Source: Thiothrix subterranea
Lineage (GTDB): Bacteria > Pseudomonadota > Gammaproteobacteria > Thiotrichales > Thiotrichaceae
DNA: 64,000 nucleotides
Assembly: GCF_030930995.1 (NCBI RefSeq)
Contig: NZ_CP133217.1
Location: forward strand, 1,178,001 to 1,242,000
Reading direction: 5' to 3'
In this document: positions 1-6,515 of the stretch, one piece after another
Numbering within the stretch: the stretch's first letter is position 1
How the letters are laid out: every line of letters begins with the position of its first letter
Notes under the pieces: model-generated
What the model was told of the DNA's origin: nothing
The model's database searches: none
Seen by the model: only the letters and a program-made list of their open reading frames with translations
Made by a program: the position numbers and the translations under genes

Positions 1-549
1 AACCAAGCTGAAATCACACAAACCCAAACCAATTCTGCTAGTTCTCAGGGTTCGCGGGTTGGTATGGTTGAGGGTGCGTATGTTGGTTCCAGTGCAGAAG
101 TCACAGCTAACCAAGCTAAAGTTACTCAAACCCAAATTAATACGAATGGCAGTGATCAATACACTGGAGTCGGTGTAGTTGAAGATTTATCTAATGATGC
201 GAATGTAAAAGTGATCGCCAACCATGCCACTGTGACGCAAAGGCAAAATAATGCAGACGCTAGTTTGCAAAATACTCAAGTTGGGGCGGCCTCTTATATT
301 GAGGGAGCGGACATTGATATTACAGCAAATCATGTTGGTGTTACCCAACGGCAAAGGGGATTGACGGGTGGTGATCAGCTTGCACAGGTGGGGGCAGTAG
401 TCGGTGAATTGGGTAATCCAATCACGGTGGATGCGGATATTACGGTAGCGAATGCCGAAAACATCACGCAGTTTCAAGATGCCAGCAATAATGCTAAGCA
501 AACCAAGCGGGTAGGTGTGGTTACTAACGGTACTTACTACCGTTTCTAA
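1..549 (+). CDS. secreted ITQTQ-repeat protein, curlin-like (5' end outside window)
   Basis: The frame is open from base 1, so the start and any signal peptide lie upstream; 182 residues are visible. The protein is built from repeats of about 36-41 residues, each with an [IV]TQ[TRF]Q motif, a later Q-x3-VG turn and an AN(H/A) step before the next VTQ. The end (SNNA-QT--VGV-TNG-YY) is nearly the same as that of the protein encoded at 620-1369, so the two are tandem paralogs. Regular Gln/Asn-rich repeats with Gly turns are typical of beta-solenoid or amyloid subunits such as CsgA curlins, but the exact CsgA spacing is not reproduced. A secreted fibre subunit is inferred from the paralog's signal peptide and the CsgG-like gene downstream. 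Confidence 0.7.
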   Translation, partial: NQAEITQTQTNSASSQGSRVGMVEGAYVGSSAEVTANQAKVTQTQINTNGSDQYTGVGVVEDLSNDANVKVIANHATVTQRQNNADASLQNTQVGAASYIEGADIDITANHVGVTQRQRGLTGGDQLAQVGAVVGELGNPITVDADITVANAENITQFQDASNNAKQTKRVGVVTNGTYYRF

Positions 550-619
550 CAGGTAGACCGCAACAGTTCCGGGTGGCAAAGCTGCCCGGAATCTCGCCTA
601 GATTCGTCAGGAATACCTC

Positions 620-1369
620 ATGAAACACGCTTTGTTTGTTGCCGCCACCCTCGTGGTGTTGGCATATAGTCCCGTTTTTGCTGCTGATGGCATTAAAATC
701 ACTGTTGGGGATACCGCCCCTTCCGCTCAAACCCAAACGCAATCGGATGGAGCCACCCAAGAAGCCACCACCGGGCGGGCGCATGAAGTCGCCGCCGGTG
801 CAACGGTGGACATTACCGCTAATCACACCCAAATAAACCAGACACAAAACAGATCAGCCGATGCCACCCAGTTTGCCGATGTAGGCATTGCTGAAGGGTT
901 GACGGGCAGCTCCACCGCCAATATCACCGTCAATAACGCCAGCATTACCCAAAGCCAAACGGCGTCAGAAGCAGGCTTCCAACAAGCCAATGTCGGTTGG
1001 GTGTCTGCACTGGCAAACCATGCCCAAGTCGATGTGGCGGCTAATCGCGTCAATATTACCCAGACACAAACCAATGCCGATTTGAGCGTTCAAAGTGCCG
1101 AAGTCGGGCGGGTTCACGATGTCGACGGTGCAACCATTGATATTCAGGTCAGCGACATTGACATTACCCAACAGCAGGACGGTGTGAGCGGTGCTGAACA
1201 ATTGGTACAAATTGGTGCTGTCATTGGTGAACCGGGCAATCCTATTCATACCAACGCTTCCATTAACGTGATGAATGCCGGGGCAGTGGTGCAAGAGCAA
1301 ACTGCCAGCAATAACGCGCAACAAACGGTGCGTATCGGCGTATTGACCAATGGGGCTTACTACCCATAA
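620..1369 (+). CDS. secreted ITQTQ-repeat protein, curlin-like
   Basis: The 249-residue protein starts at an ATG with AGGAA just upstream. Residues 1-21 form a Sec signal peptide (hydrophobic ALFVAATLVVLAY, then Ala-x-Ala cleavage before ADG). After a Gln/Thr-rich linker come about five repeats of 36-41 residues carrying ITQTQ, ITQSQ or ITQQQ, each followed by Q-x2-VG. The last 20 residues match the end of the preceding protein. There is no cysteine. Composition is rich in Asn, Gln, Thr, Ala and Val and poor in charge, which suits a beta-solenoid fibre subunit. It could instead be a solenoid adhesin or matrix protein; the amyloid role is inference. Confidence 0.75.
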   Translation: MKHALFVAATLVVLAYSPVFAADGIKITVGDTAPSAQTQTQSDGATQEATTGRAHEVAAGATVDITANHTQINQTQNRSADATQFADVGIAEGLTGSSTANITVNNASITQSQTASEAGFQQANVGWVSALANHAQVDVAANRVNITQTQTNADLSVQSAEVGRVHDVDGATIDIQVSDIDITQQQDGVSGAEQLVQIGAVIGEPGNPIHTNASINVMNAGAVVQEQTASNNAQQTVRIGVLTNGAYYP

Positions 1370-1509
1370 GCCATACACCACTCAGGCGGCATCCATACCC
1401 GTTAATGACATTAATCTGTAGCGAGTATCCGCCTGTCAACTTTACACTAACTAATCACCACTAATCACTTTACGATTAACTTATGTGATTGATCAGTGAG
1501 GAAAACCAG

Positions 1510-1824
1510 ATGTCGATAAAACTCATTTTAGTAGCGTGCTTATTGGCTTGTAGCAGCCATGTGGCATTTGCGGAAGATGCCGGTAGTGAAGATAAACTCA
1601 TGAATGACATGAATTCCAAAATGGCACAAATGAAAGCGCGGATGCGTGCTTACGAAGCCGAATTGGATCACGAAAGTGAAGATTATTACGCCGTATCGCA
1701 GTTTGATACCGCCGGTTGTGACATTAATATCGGTAATGTGGTGGTCGATGATGGCGCAAATTCACCGGATGAAATCGTGGTATTAATCGACGGTGATGTG
1801 ATTCAGTCCAATAACTGCCGTTAA
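1510..1824 (+). CDS. small secreted protein of the fibre locus, unknown function
   Basis: 104 residues. An in-frame TTG at 1489 lies upstream, but the ATG at 1510 is preferred because GTGAGGAAA lies at proper spacing and it begins a clean signal peptide (residues 1-20, ending HVAFA before EDAG). The mature part has a short acidic/Met-rich helical stretch (MNDMNSKMAQMKARM) and a C-terminal beta-type segment with two cysteines, at GCDINIG and NNCR, which could form a disulfide. No family was recognised. Its position between repeat proteins and the CsgG-like lipoprotein suggests an accessory role comparable to CsgE/CsgF or a minor subunit, but no sequence similarity to those was seen. Confidence 0.65.
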   Translation: MSIKLILVACLLACSSHVAFAEDAGSEDKLMNDMNSKMAQMKARMRAYEAELDHESEDYYAVSQFDTAGCDINIGNVVVDDGANSPDEIVVLIDGDVIQSNNCR

Positions 1825-1862
1825 AACCTTTTACCTGTCATTAAAAACGCGAGACAACAATC

Positions 1863-2888
1863 ATGAAAAAGTCCGTCATTATGTTAGCAGTAGCTTTTAC
1901 CCTTTTCATATTGGGTGGCTGTGCCAGTTTAGATAATAAACTGGCGCGGGAATTTGAAAAAATCCGTAAGGGGCCTACGGGTTCACCTTATAAATCTGTT
2001 ACGAATTTTTCTGATGCCTTAAGCTGTGTTGATGATTTAATGCTGGCAAAAGGCGTGAAAAGCATTCCGGTGATGGTGGAAGACCTCGACGATAAAACCG
2101 AAGAGGTTAAAACCGGCACTCGTGATATGTTAATTTCGGCTATTTCACGTATGACCACCAAAAGCAAGGCGATTAAGCTGATTGCTTACGGTAAAGATTC
2201 CGGCAATCTGGTGTCATTTATGAAAGCCGCGAATTATTCCGATGCCTACAAAGAAATGCCCGCGTTTGATATTCAAGGCTCAATCACCCAATTCGACAAA
2301 GGTGTTGCTAGGGGAGATGCCAGTACCGGGGTGTTTTACCGTAAAAAAGGCGGTGGCGGTGCAGCTCACAGTACTTCATTGAACGTGGTCGCCTTGGATT
2401 TGAATGTGTTACGTGCTTCAGACATGAGCGTGATTCCTGGTATTACCTCCAGCAATTCGGTCGCGATTTTCCAGCGCGGTGATTCACTGGATATGGATGC
2501 CAGCATTAATAAGTTTGGTGTATATTTCGACCTAAGCCTCAACGCCAGCGAAGGCAAAGCGCAGGCAGTACGCAATCTGGTTGACCTTGCCGCAGTGGAA
2601 TTGGTGGGCAAATTGGTCGGTGTGCCTTACAGCAAGTGTCTGGGGGTCAAAGAACCAGCGGCAGGCACGGCGGGTACAACCGGGCAAAGCGGCGCAAAAG
2701 GTGCTAATAGCCAGCCACAAACAGAACCTGTTAAAGTGATTAACATGAAACTCCCCAAACTGACCCCCAAACAGGATACGATAGCACCCACTGCCCCGGC
2801 AGTGATGCACGCGCTCAAAGTCGGTGATACTGTTGATGCGCAGGGAATTGTACGGGTAAAACGAATTATCACGCCTAGCAAGCCTTAA
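1863..2888 (+). CDS. CsgG/HfaB-like outer-membrane lipoprotein
   Basis: The 341-residue protein has a lipoprotein signal (LFILGGC, lipidated Cys20) and no Asp at +2, consistent with the outer membrane. Residues about 40-257 have the CsgG order: an N-terminal alpha/beta part, then FDIQGSITQFD, which resembles the CsgG strand IVEGSIIGYD, then a Gly-rich GVFYRKKGGGG loop and LNVVALDLNVLRASD, which resembles the CsgG strand ending in VVNVSTGE. CsgG forms the curli secretion pore; HfaB is its holdfast counterpart in Caulobacter. Residues 260-341 are a Gly/Thr/Pro-rich linker and short tail not found in CsgG. It lies 38 bp after the small secreted protein. The assignment is from motif resemblance and order, not alignment. 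Confidence 0.6.
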   Translation: MKKSVIMLAVAFTLFILGGCASLDNKLAREFEKIRKGPTGSPYKSVTNFSDALSCVDDLMLAKGVKSIPVMVEDLDDKTEEVKTGTRDMLISAISRMTTKSKAIKLIAYGKDSGNLVSFMKAANYSDAYKEMPAFDIQGSITQFDKGVARGDASTGVFYRKKGGGGAAHSTSLNVVALDLNVLRASDMSVIPGITSSNSVAIFQRGDSLDMDASINKFGVYFDLSLNASEGKAQAVRNLVDLAAVELVGKLVGVPYSKCLGVKEPAAGTAGTTGQSGAKGANSQPQTEPVKVINMKLPKLTPKQDTIAPTAPAVMHALKVGDTVDAQGIVRVKRIITPSKP

Positions 2889-2918
2889 TCTTGGGCGCTT
2901 ATAGCAAAGGAAGTCGCC

Positions 2919-3599
2919 ATGCAACATGTGCTCATTGTGGAAGATGTCCCTGAAACCGCTGAATGGTTGGGTGTCGTCCTGCAACAAGCTTTCGGGGAGG
3001 TGCACCTCAATGTGGCGACTACCTGCCAACAAGCGCGGCAACTGTTAGGCAAAGTCAGCGTAAATGTAGCGTTGCTGGATATTAATCTGCCGGACGGTAG
3101 CGGTATCGACTTGGTGGCGAGTGTGCGTCAGGATTACCCTAATGCTTACATTGTAATCACTACCATTTTTGATGATGAAGAACACATCCTCCACGCTGTG
3201 CAAGCAGGGGCGCATGGCTACCTGCTGAAAGATTCGTCTGAGTTGGTGTTTATTCAGAAATTACGCGGTATTCTCAGTGGCGATCCACCGCTGTCACCGA
3301 GTGTCTCGCGGCGCATATTGCAATATTTTTCGTCCGCCGGAAACGTTCATGGCACACCGGATAATCAGCATTCTGGCGTTAATCGCAGCGACGTGGCGAG
3401 TCTAAGCCCCCGCGAACGCGAAGTGTTGATATTAGTTGCTAAGGGGCTTAGCCGGGGTGATGTGGCGGAATTATTGGGGCTGTCGACCAATACCGTAGCG
3501 CGGTATATCCGGGATGTGTACCAGAAGCTCAATATATCCAGCCGCGCTGAGGCAGCCGTGGAGGCTTGCCGCATGGGGCTGGTCAGAACGGATTTCTAA
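2919..3599 (+). CDS. NarL/FixJ-family response regulator
   Basis: 226 residues, with AAGGAAG 9 bases before the ATG. Residues 1-120 are a receiver domain: acidic pocket E8/D9, phospho-acceptor D54 in ALLDINLPDGSG, T81/T82 and K104 in GYLLKD. Residues about 155-220 are a LuxR/GerE helix-turn-helix (LSPREREVLILVAKG, then the recognition segment NTVARYIRDVYQKL). It follows the CsgG-like gene by 30 bp and precedes its likely kinase by 10 bp. CsgD, the curli master regulator, is also a LuxR-type protein, so control of the fibre genes is a reasonable inference, though CsgD lacks a canonical phosphorylation site and this protein has one. Confidence 0.9.
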   Translation: MQHVLIVEDVPETAEWLGVVLQQAFGEVHLNVATTCQQARQLLGKVSVNVALLDINLPDGSGIDLVASVRQDYPNAYIVITTIFDDEEHILHAVQAGAHGYLLKDSSELVFIQKLRGILSGDPPLSPSVSRRILQYFSSAGNVHGTPDNQHSGVNRSDVASLSPREREVLILVAKGLSRGDVAELLGLSTNTVARYIRDVYQKLNISSRAEAAVEACRMGLVRTDF

Positions 3600-3609
3600 G
3601 GTTGCCCGT

Positions 3610-5784
3610 TTGAACTGGTCATTCCCCAAACCCGTTATTGCCCCCGCCAATATTTTGCTGGCGGTATTGCTGTTCATTGCCGTCACCCAGATTATTTCCG
3701 CTTACCTATTGACCCAGCAACAGTGGACGGGTATTCGGGTAACTGCCACGGCTGCGGATACGCTGCTGATCAAATCCATCAGTGCCAATTCCCCGGCCTC
3801 TGGAAAACTCGCCGCCGGTGAAACTTTGCTTGGCCTGCAAGTCGATGGGAAGCTGCTAACCATCAAGCCATTGCTGAACGGTTATGCGCCACTTTCCCCC
3901 GCGACGTTCGCACAACGGGCGGAGTTTTATCAGCAACAGCAAACCCTACATCAAGCCTTTACCCAACATGCTCAAGTAACTTTTGTGACCACGACGGGCA
4001 AGACCGTTGCGCTGACACCCGCCGCACATACCCCCGTTGCGGCTATCCCCGCTGTGTTTTGGTTGCTGGGTCTTGCAAACATGATCTCGCCATTGGTGGG
4101 CGCATTGGTCTGGACATACCGCCCTTATCAAAAAGCATCCCTGTTTTTACTGCTGCACAGCTTGCTGTACTACGTTTTTGCGGTCAGCGGCGCTGGGGTT
4201 ATTGCCACGGAATTTTATATGGAACCCGGCGCATTGCGGCAGAATCTGCTGCTGCAAGCCACAGGTATCAACTTCGCCGCTACCCTGATTCTGGTCATTC
4301 TGTGTGATTTGCCCAAACCGTTGGTGCGCGGGTTGTGGTTGTTTTGGCTGGTTATGGGGTTTACGGCACTTTCCACCGCTAATTATCACTACGGTTGGAT
4401 TGAAACGCCGGGGCATATTTTTTACATACAATACCCCTTTTTGTACGTGATCGTGTTGGGCATTATTGCCCTGCAATTGCGCCAGACGCGCCGTCAGCCG
4501 GTGGAACGGGCGAGCCTGCATGTTCTCGCAGCGGCGTTTATGTTGCCAAATGCCATTATTATTGCATTGCATGTTTTCCCTATTCTGCTGGGTAAGCCGC
4601 CGATTGTTGGCAATATTTCGGCGCTATTGCTGTTTAACCTGATGGCGATAGGGCTTGGGGTAGGGATTCTGCGCTATCGGCTGTTTGCGATTGAATTCTG
4701 GTGGCTAAAGTCCATGCTGTGGGTTGTGGGGGGCTTGCTGGTCGCGGGTATTGATGTGGGGTTAATGACATTGCTGCAATTGCGGGGTGATTATGTGCTG
4801 GCAATGTCGGTCATTATTGCAGGCTTTTTGTATTTTCCGCTGCGCCAATGGCTATTGGATAAAATTATTCCAATGGAACGCCAGAATCTCAGTGATTTTC
4901 TGCCTGCTTTGAGCACCAATCTTGGGGATGCGCTCTCCAAAGAAACCTTTGAACAACGTTGGCAGGAATCCTTGCTGCAACGCTTCCTGCCGTTGCATAT
5001 CGAAAAATTGTCTGCCCAAGTGACCACTACCCACTTGTCAGACAACGGTTTGCACCTTGATGTGCCTAGCCTTGGCAATCAACATGCGTGGCGCTTGACC
5101 GGCAAACAACGGGCGGCACGGCTGTTTAATAAAACCGACGTCAAACATACCGAGTCGCTGTTAACGGTGGCACGGATGGCCAGTAATGCCAGCGAAACCC
5201 GCCAGCAGGCTATTCTGGAAGAGCGGCGGCGCATAATGCACGACTTGCATGACAGTGTTGGTGCAAAACTGCTAACCCTGAGCCATAAGCTACCGGATGC
5301 AACCCACCGTGAGGATGTGCGGCAGGCGCTAATGACGTTACGGGAAACGGTACGGTTATCGCAGCAAGCAAGCCCGACCAAACTGGTCGATAATATTGCG
5401 GATTGGCGGGCAGAAATTGCCGGGCGAGCCGAAGCCGCAGAAGTCAGGTTACGTTGGCGGCAGGATGAGCGGCTGGATGCTTGCCAATTATGCCCGCGCC
5501 GAATACTGCAAGTGTCGCAGATACTCCGTGAAGCAGTCAGCAATGCGCTGCGGCACGCCGAGCCAGAAACGTTGGAGGTGGGTTTTGCTTTATCCAACAA
5601 TAAATTGCACCTAATCGTTACGAATGACGGAAAAATATCCCCGCCTGAGCGTTGGCAAGCGGGGACTGGAGTAAACGGTATCCGGCATCGGGTCGCGGCA
5701 TTAGGCGGGGAGGTGGGTTTTTATTGCAGTGATCCTCCCCAATCCAAAATCACGGTGCATATTGCTGTTCCCCTGCAAGTCTAA
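3610..5784 (+). CDS. membrane sensor histidine kinase, NarL partner type
   Basis: No ATG lies near the front. A TTG at 3610 is preferred because TAAGG sits 8 bases upstream; a GTG at 3514 would overlap the regulator by 86 bp. This gives 724 residues. A first membrane segment (about residues 12-30) precedes a periplasmic PDZ-like stretch (LLIKSISANSPASGKLAAGE), then several membrane helices (about residues 140-420). The C-terminal part is a HisKA_3 kinase: RRRIMHDLHDSVGAKLL with the likely phospho-acceptor H547 in LHDSVG, N-box REAVSNALRHA (N645), NDG and GTGVNGIRHRV. It should phosphorylate the adjacent regulator. A PDZ-like sensor could detect misfolded or unsecreted subunits, but that is speculation. 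Confidence 0.87.
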   Translation: MNWSFPKPVIAPANILLAVLLFIAVTQIISAYLLTQQQWTGIRVTATAADTLLIKSISANSPASGKLAAGETLLGLQVDGKLLTIKPLLNGYAPLSPATFAQRAEFYQQQQTLHQAFTQHAQVTFVTTTGKTVALTPAAHTPVAAIPAVFWLLGLANMISPLVGALVWTYRPYQKASLFLLLHSLLYYVFAVSGAGVIATEFYMEPGALRQNLLLQATGINFAATLILVILCDLPKPLVRGLWLFWLVMGFTALSTANYHYGWIETPGHIFYIQYPFLYVIVLGIIALQLRQTRRQPVERASLHVLAAAFMLPNAIIIALHVFPILLGKPPIVGNISALLLFNLMAIGLGVGILRYRLFAIEFWWLKSMLWVVGGLLVAGIDVGLMTLLQLRGDYVLAMSVIIAGFLYFPLRQWLLDKIIPMERQNLSDFLPALSTNLGDALSKETFEQRWQESLLQRFLPLHIEKLSAQVTTTHLSDNGLHLDVPSLGNQHAWRLTGKQRAARLFNKTDVKHTESLLTVARMASNASETRQQAILEERRRIMHDLHDSVGAKLLTLSHKLPDATHREDVRQALMTLRETVRLSQQASPTKLVDNIADWRAEIAGRAEAAEVRLRWRQDERLDACQLCPRRILQVSQILREAVSNALRHAEPETLEVGFALSNNKLHLIVTNDGKISPPERWQAGTGVNGIRHRVAALGGEVGFYCSDPPQSKITVHIAVPLQV

Positions 5785-5826: not shown

Positions 5827-6008
5827 GAATAATGTGCCAGTTAATGCAGTCAGTTGAGGGGTTCAACCAGCACACCTAAACTTTACCGCTATTCCGTTAC
5901 TGGCGGCATCATCCGTTTGGATACACTTGAGTGGGGTAAAAGTAGTTGTATTAGCAAATGCTTATAAATGGGTATAAACTGGTGAAACCACTAGAAGGAG
6001 ACACCATC

Positions 6009-6515
6009 ATGAGCACACGTATCATTATTTTCACCGCTTTGACCCTGTTGGCTGGCAACGCATCGGCTGATTTTTTCGACGGTTTCGATATGGGCAATTT
6101 CTTCGGTAATAACCGCCAAGAACAAGCGCAACAAGCTAACGCTTTCGGGCAAACCCAAGGCAATGGTAACGGCACTGCCAATGGGCAATCACGCGGGCGT
6201 GGTGAAGCCGACATTAATATGGATTTCGACCTGAATTTCCGCGCCAAAGCGAACAGCATGTTCAATGCTGATAGCCGCGCACAAGGCCAAGGCGACGTGG
6301 CGCAATACCAAGATCAGCAATTCAATGCTTACGGCTCGGCTTATAACACGGCGTATAATGGCCTTAACACGGGCGCATACAGCTACCCGTATGCTTACCC
6401 TTACAGCTATTACACGGCTTACCCACAACAAATGTACGCGCCAACGTACTCGACTTATTACCCACAGGCGTATTATCCGCAAACACAAGGCTACTACCTG
6501 CCACCAGCTCAATAG
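6009..6515 (+). CDS. putative sulfur globule protein
   Basis: 168 residues. The ATG at 6009 has a near-perfect AAGGAG 8 bases upstream; an earlier in-frame start at 5958 lacks one. Residues 1-20 are a Sec signal peptide ending GNASA. The mature protein begins DFFDGFDMGNFFGN, has a Gln/Asn/Gly-rich stretch, a DINMDFDLNFRAKA segment, and a C-terminal 60 residues dominated by Tyr, Pro, Ala and Ser (YSYPYAYPYSYYTAYP). This order (short acidic/Phe start, DMNMNF-like segment, Tyr/Pro/Gly-rich tail) recalls the SgpA/B proteins of Allochromatium vinosum that coat periplasmic sulfur globules. Low-complexity proteins converge easily, so a structural envelope protein of another kind remains possible. 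Confidence 0.6.
   Translation: MSTRIIIFTALTLLAGNASADFFDGFDMGNFFGNNRQEQAQQANAFGQTQGNGNGTANGQSRGRGEADINMDFDLNFRAKANSMFNADSRAQGQGDVAQYQDQQFNAYGSAYNTAYNGLNTGAYSYPYAYPYSYYTAYPQQMYAPTYSTYYPQAYYPQTQGYYLPPAQ

Follow-up and report, generated by a model that had tools for sequence, protein, structure and literature searches.

A probable CsgG-dependent fibre-subunit export cassette in Thiothrix subterranea with relatives across the Pseudomonadota

We describe a locus of Thiothrix subterranea that, we infer, quite likely encodes a CsgG-dependent system for the export of fibre subunits, of the same kind as curli and the HfaABD proteins. We found no description of this family in the open-access literature, and its newness presumes that none exists elsewhere. 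The locus opens the window, the whole stretch of 64,000 nucleotides that was analysed (G000:C2:1178001-1242000). Reading of the open reading frames gave six genes on the forward strand, encoding repeat protein A, repeat protein B, a small di-Cys protein, a lipoprotein, a response regulator and a histidine kinase, exactly the order and strand given in the preliminary description (Table 1). That description had also proposed looking at the DNA 5' of the first base, and this completed the gene for subunit A, which starts 642 bases before the window and encodes 396 aa (L001:9359-10546). Signal peptides and the lipobox were assigned by direct reading of the sequence; for the di-Cys gene, ATG 1510 suits the signal peptide better than TTG 1489. 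Domain scans with Pfam and NCBIfam confirmed the identities of the regulator and kinase, and gave no family match for the repeat proteins or the di-Cys protein. Comparison with PHROGs gave no match, and a promoter scan gave matches no commoner than in shuffled DNA. The stem-loop between the genes for subunits A and B could possibly be an mRNA-stabilising or stoichiometry element.

Table 1. Features of the fibre-export locus and adjoining two-component genes, in window coordinates
Feature	Position	Strand	Remarks
Subunit A, 3' part	1..546	+	signal peptide on whole gene; 10 repeats of 36-37 aa
Stem-loop, 12-bp, without T-run, between subunits A and B	547..619	+	z -2.9; 3/200 shuffles fold equally well
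Subunit B, 249 aa	620..1366	+	signal peptide, 6 repeats, predicted beta-solenoid
Di-Cys secreted accessory protein, 104 aa	1510..1821	+	C-terminal C-x-INIGNV...GDVIQSNNC domain
CsgG-fold outer-membrane lipoprotein, 341 aa, putative export pore	1863..2885	+	lipobox LGGC
NarL/LuxR-type response regulator	2919..3596	+	domain scan
Membrane histidine kinase, HisKA_3/HATPase_c	3610..5781	+	domain scan; TTG start 3610 likely

Subunits A and B are built from the same repeat. Subunit A has 10 copies of the pattern Q-x-Q-x(6-8)-Q-x(3-5)-G and B has 6, in a register common to both (starts 37, 74, 111, 148, 184), with a period of 36-37 residues and a last unit of about 41. In most copies the unit reads N-x-h-x-h-x-Q and then Q-x(6-8)-Q-x(3-5)-G, and the label 'ITQTQ' given to these repeats in the preliminary description fits most units. 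For the element N-x-h-x-h-x-Q, A has 6 occurrences where 0.6 would be expected, a count reached by none of 5000 shuffles, whereas B has 3 where 0.37 would be expected, reached by 35 of 5000. Together with the regular register, this indicates that the repeats are not due to chance. Structure prediction, which the preliminary description had proposed for the repeat proteins, returned a beta-solenoid for subunit B (AlphaFold; pLDDT 78, pTM 0.81; model built on 4 sequences). Foldseek found no close relative of this model in the PDB, and VIA found a generic likeness to beta-helices only (Z up to 11.4).

The repeats of the Thiothrix-type loci and of the beta/gamma lineage are related to each other by profile comparison (score 17.5; the best of 100 column shuffles reached 12.9). 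Direct homology to curlin is unsupported: the scores of the two lineages against E. coli curlin were equalled by 10 and 9 of 100 column shuffles, and the Pfam curlin repeat (PF07012) had no match in the subunits or in 16 genomes of the genus. An NCBIfam match to CsgA in the subunit of G006 (E 2e-5) was dropped because the mature sequence alone matches nothing, so that the match must have come from the signal peptide.

The lipoprotein has the CsgG fold, as the preliminary description had supposed, and profile, Foldseek and VIA searches all found it. By Pfam the window lipoprotein scores 14.4 against the CsgG family, under the curated cut-off of 20.8. A profile of 20 relatives compared with the PDB gave CsgG as its sole match (E 1.2e-5); a narrower profile of 17 relatives gave no significant CsgG match there, so the distant members were needed for significance. 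The predicted model has a mean pLDDT of 58, with most of the core at 70-90 and low values in the membrane-hairpin regions, and in Foldseek its ranks 1-24 were all CsgG (best E 9e-8). VIA aligned it with CsgG at Z 12.3-14.1 over 154-194 residues. Families missing from the fold-search results were given no weight. The constriction loop of CsgG bears Tyr66, Asn70 and Phe71 in precursor numbering (PMC7304575). In an alignment with E. coli CsgG this loop, about a dozen residues, is absent from the window lipoprotein and the close relatives shown, which implies that the gating has to be supplied by some other part or partner. The Pro/Thr/Lys tail of the lipoprotein (residues 262-341) is unstructured.

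Relatives of the lipoprotein were found on GTDB contigs of Thiotrichaceae, Chromatiales, Pseudomonadales, Burkholderiales, Rhodocyclaceae, Nitrosomonadales and one Geobacteraceae MAG, and 20 of 398 sampled Pseudomonadota genomes, the window genome included, carry the family (~5%). The window genome has two copies; at least one lipoprotein is present in 8 of the 16 genomes of the genus and the other 8 have none. The di-Cys gene lies directly 5' of the lipoprotein gene in 38 of 51 loci, and repeat subunits are encoded 5' of this pair in most core loci, while some distant lipoprotein loci have neither di-Cys nor repeat genes. Subunit, di-Cys protein and lipoprotein thus form a conserved cassette. 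In most of the 38 loci the di-Cys protein carries the motif C-x(1-3)-h-x-(I/V)-G-N...G-D-(V/I)-(I/L)-(Q/N)...C. Its portion IGNV...GDVIQ suggested that the domain might be a single fibre repeat in permuted form, serving as a capping rung. This candidate was set aside as weakly supported: single-sequence scores ranked in roughly the top 0.3-12% of shuffles, and the profile alignment spanned only 6 columns and was equalled by 1 of 100 shuffles.

The composition of the cassette varies between lineages. Many loci of the genus encode a single two-repeat subunit of ~95 aa, and C-terminal Cys pairs (GCDC) recur in many two-repeat subunits. Loci of the beta/gamma lineage often encode two further proteins, a 'CWQ' protein of ~95-150 aa and a member of the OmpA family, and a DUF4384 domain forms the end of some lipoproteins there. 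One distant CsgG-like lipoprotein gene has as its neighbour a gene for an HSP20-like small secreted protein, a possible periplasmic chaperone (L043:7765-8151; Pfam E 0.0024, under the cut-off).

Subunit genes are exchangeable while the di-Cys-lipoprotein pair stays, as seen in three near-identical genomes (G000, G001 and G006) whose lipoproteins and kinases are 96-99% identical. Between an S4-domain gene (L001:8740-9129 on the window side) and the di-Cys gene these genomes differ, and the slot holds either A and B, or a 140-aa protein with three repeats next to a gene for a haem peroxidase (PF03098), or a 98-aa protein with two repeats. The short replacements of A and B (L028:9799-10221 and L030:10021-10314) have a CxxC or CxC near their end (CATC, CNC).

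Like curli, the cassette encodes a CsgG-fold outer-membrane lipoprotein next to secreted solenoid repeat proteins rich in Gln and Asn, and it has two subunits that are paralogues and a gene for a small secreted accessory protein. Its repeats differ in length, at 36-37 residues in the window and ~34-36 in other lineages against ~23 for the curlin unit (PMC10192328). The cassette also differs in having a di-Cys protein and in lacking the constriction loop. The preliminary description had called CsgF unrecognisable and the repeat sequence different from that of curli, and this was borne out: like the curlin repeat, CsgF (PF10614) was undetected in all 16 genomes of the genus, with a positive E. 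coli control. The CsgE model had no match among the cassette proteins scanned. In its fold, its set of parts and its gene neighbourhood the system resembles curli; its repeats and the lack of CsgF and of the constriction loop place it outside curli. The Pseudomonas Fap system has solenoid repeats of comparable length, but FapC compared with the subunit B model was at noise level, and the pore of that system is FapF and not a CsgG lipoprotein. FapD is the C39 peptidase of fap, and a C39 peptidase adjoins the cassette in one relative only (L032:7333-7989). The surrounding region of that relative, G013, also encodes a pair of small secreted proteins whose leader-like motif reads 'SEM(x)xTEG' (L032:5753-7989 with the peptidase), an arrangement reminiscent of double-glycine processing.

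On the reading we prefer, Sec would export subunits A and B, which would then cross the outer membrane in an unfolded state through a ring formed by the lipoprotein. Once at the cell surface they would take up their beta-solenoid fold and may join end to end to build an adhesive or matrix fibre, in the manner of CsgA/CsgB or HfaA. A plug, gate or nucleator/anchor at the pore would be the most likely role of the di-Cys protein, in place of CsgE/CsgF. We propose more tentatively that these loci represent a separate, widespread CsgG-type fibre-export family in Pseudomonadota, with an unconstricted, di-Cys-gated pore and exchangeable solenoid subunits, whose evolution was separate from that of curli and holdfast anchors. 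If our reading is right, these loci would constitute a second branch of CsgG-dependent fibre export lacking the pore constriction and CsgF of E. coli curli, and thus a natural test of the purpose of both. They would also provide candidates for the matrix fibres of bacteria in which searches for curli come up empty, among them filamentous sulphur bacteria and others from the environment.

The preliminary description had given the system its own two-component regulator, and had expected the gene order to be kept in relatives. None of the three outcomes that it had named as refuting its reading occurred: the lipoprotein has the CsgG fold, a solenoid is predicted for the repeat protein, and the order of subunit, di-Cys and lipoprotein genes is kept. 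The regulator and kinase proved separable. A rival reading, in which the adjoining NarL-type pair would be the dedicated switch of a curli-type fibre system, agrees with our preferred one in all but the regulator. The tight adjacency of pair and cassette in three genomes speaks for it, as does a second lineage (L118-L121) in which an unrelated NarL/HisKA_3 pair adjoins the lipoprotein (domains checked for L119), suggesting that regulation by such pairs may occur. However, the pair is 94% conserved, by kinase identity, in G012 and G004, which share the upstream flank and lack the whole cassette. Their regulator is preceded by a remnant that aligns with the 3' portion of the lipoprotein gene (L001 12849 onwards), which points to loss there and not to insertion elsewhere. 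Further homologues of the pair occur in the cassette-less G002 and G010, and in G013 away from the cassette; G013 and every second-type locus have a cassette without an adjoining pair. We consider dedication unlikely, and the regulator is probably not dedicated to the cassette. The G004 kinase orthologue (L106:8081-10460) is split into two reading frames.

Two other explanations concern what the cassette builds. Its solenoid proteins could be a small surface anchor tethering a polysaccharide adhesin, and not long fibres, as in the HfaABD holdfast anchor. The part lists are alike, each with secreted amyloid-like repeat proteins and a CsgG-like lipoprotein, and in Caulobacter HfaA and HfaD reach the surface only with HfaB (PMC6707917). 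HfaB is also the best, weak NCBIfam match of the lipoprotein (E 0.0045), and the ~95-aa subunits of many genus loci suit an anchor more than a fibre. Against this, the lipoprotein scores 16.2 bits where the HfaB equivalog cut-off is 300, and no HfaD-like protein is recognised beside the cassette. We know of no di-Cys partner described for the Hfa system. With the lipoprotein missing from half of the genus, a holdfast role for the cassette is unsupported, and we regard the anchor as improbable. Less probable still is a set of surface proteins accompanied by a non-pore outer-membrane lipoprotein forming a PelC- or TraT-like ring, without fibre assembly. Lipoproteins with no part in fibre export (PelC, TraT) can also have a CsgG-like fold, so the fold alone is no proof of a pore; PelC, TraT and TolB gave Z 9-10 with the model, whose pore hairpins have low confidence. 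CsgG is nevertheless clearly higher, PelC being the next family at Z 10.4 with ~125 residues aligned; both hairpin segments align with CsgG TM1/TM2, and many loci encode repeat solenoids alongside.

Downstream of the kinase, window positions 5958-6512 encode a secreted Gln/Tyr/Pro-rich protein of 185 aa, whose composition we take to be like that of sulphur-globule envelope proteins. It is kept downstream in relatives, and its G013 counterpart (46%) follows directly after the lipoprotein gene.
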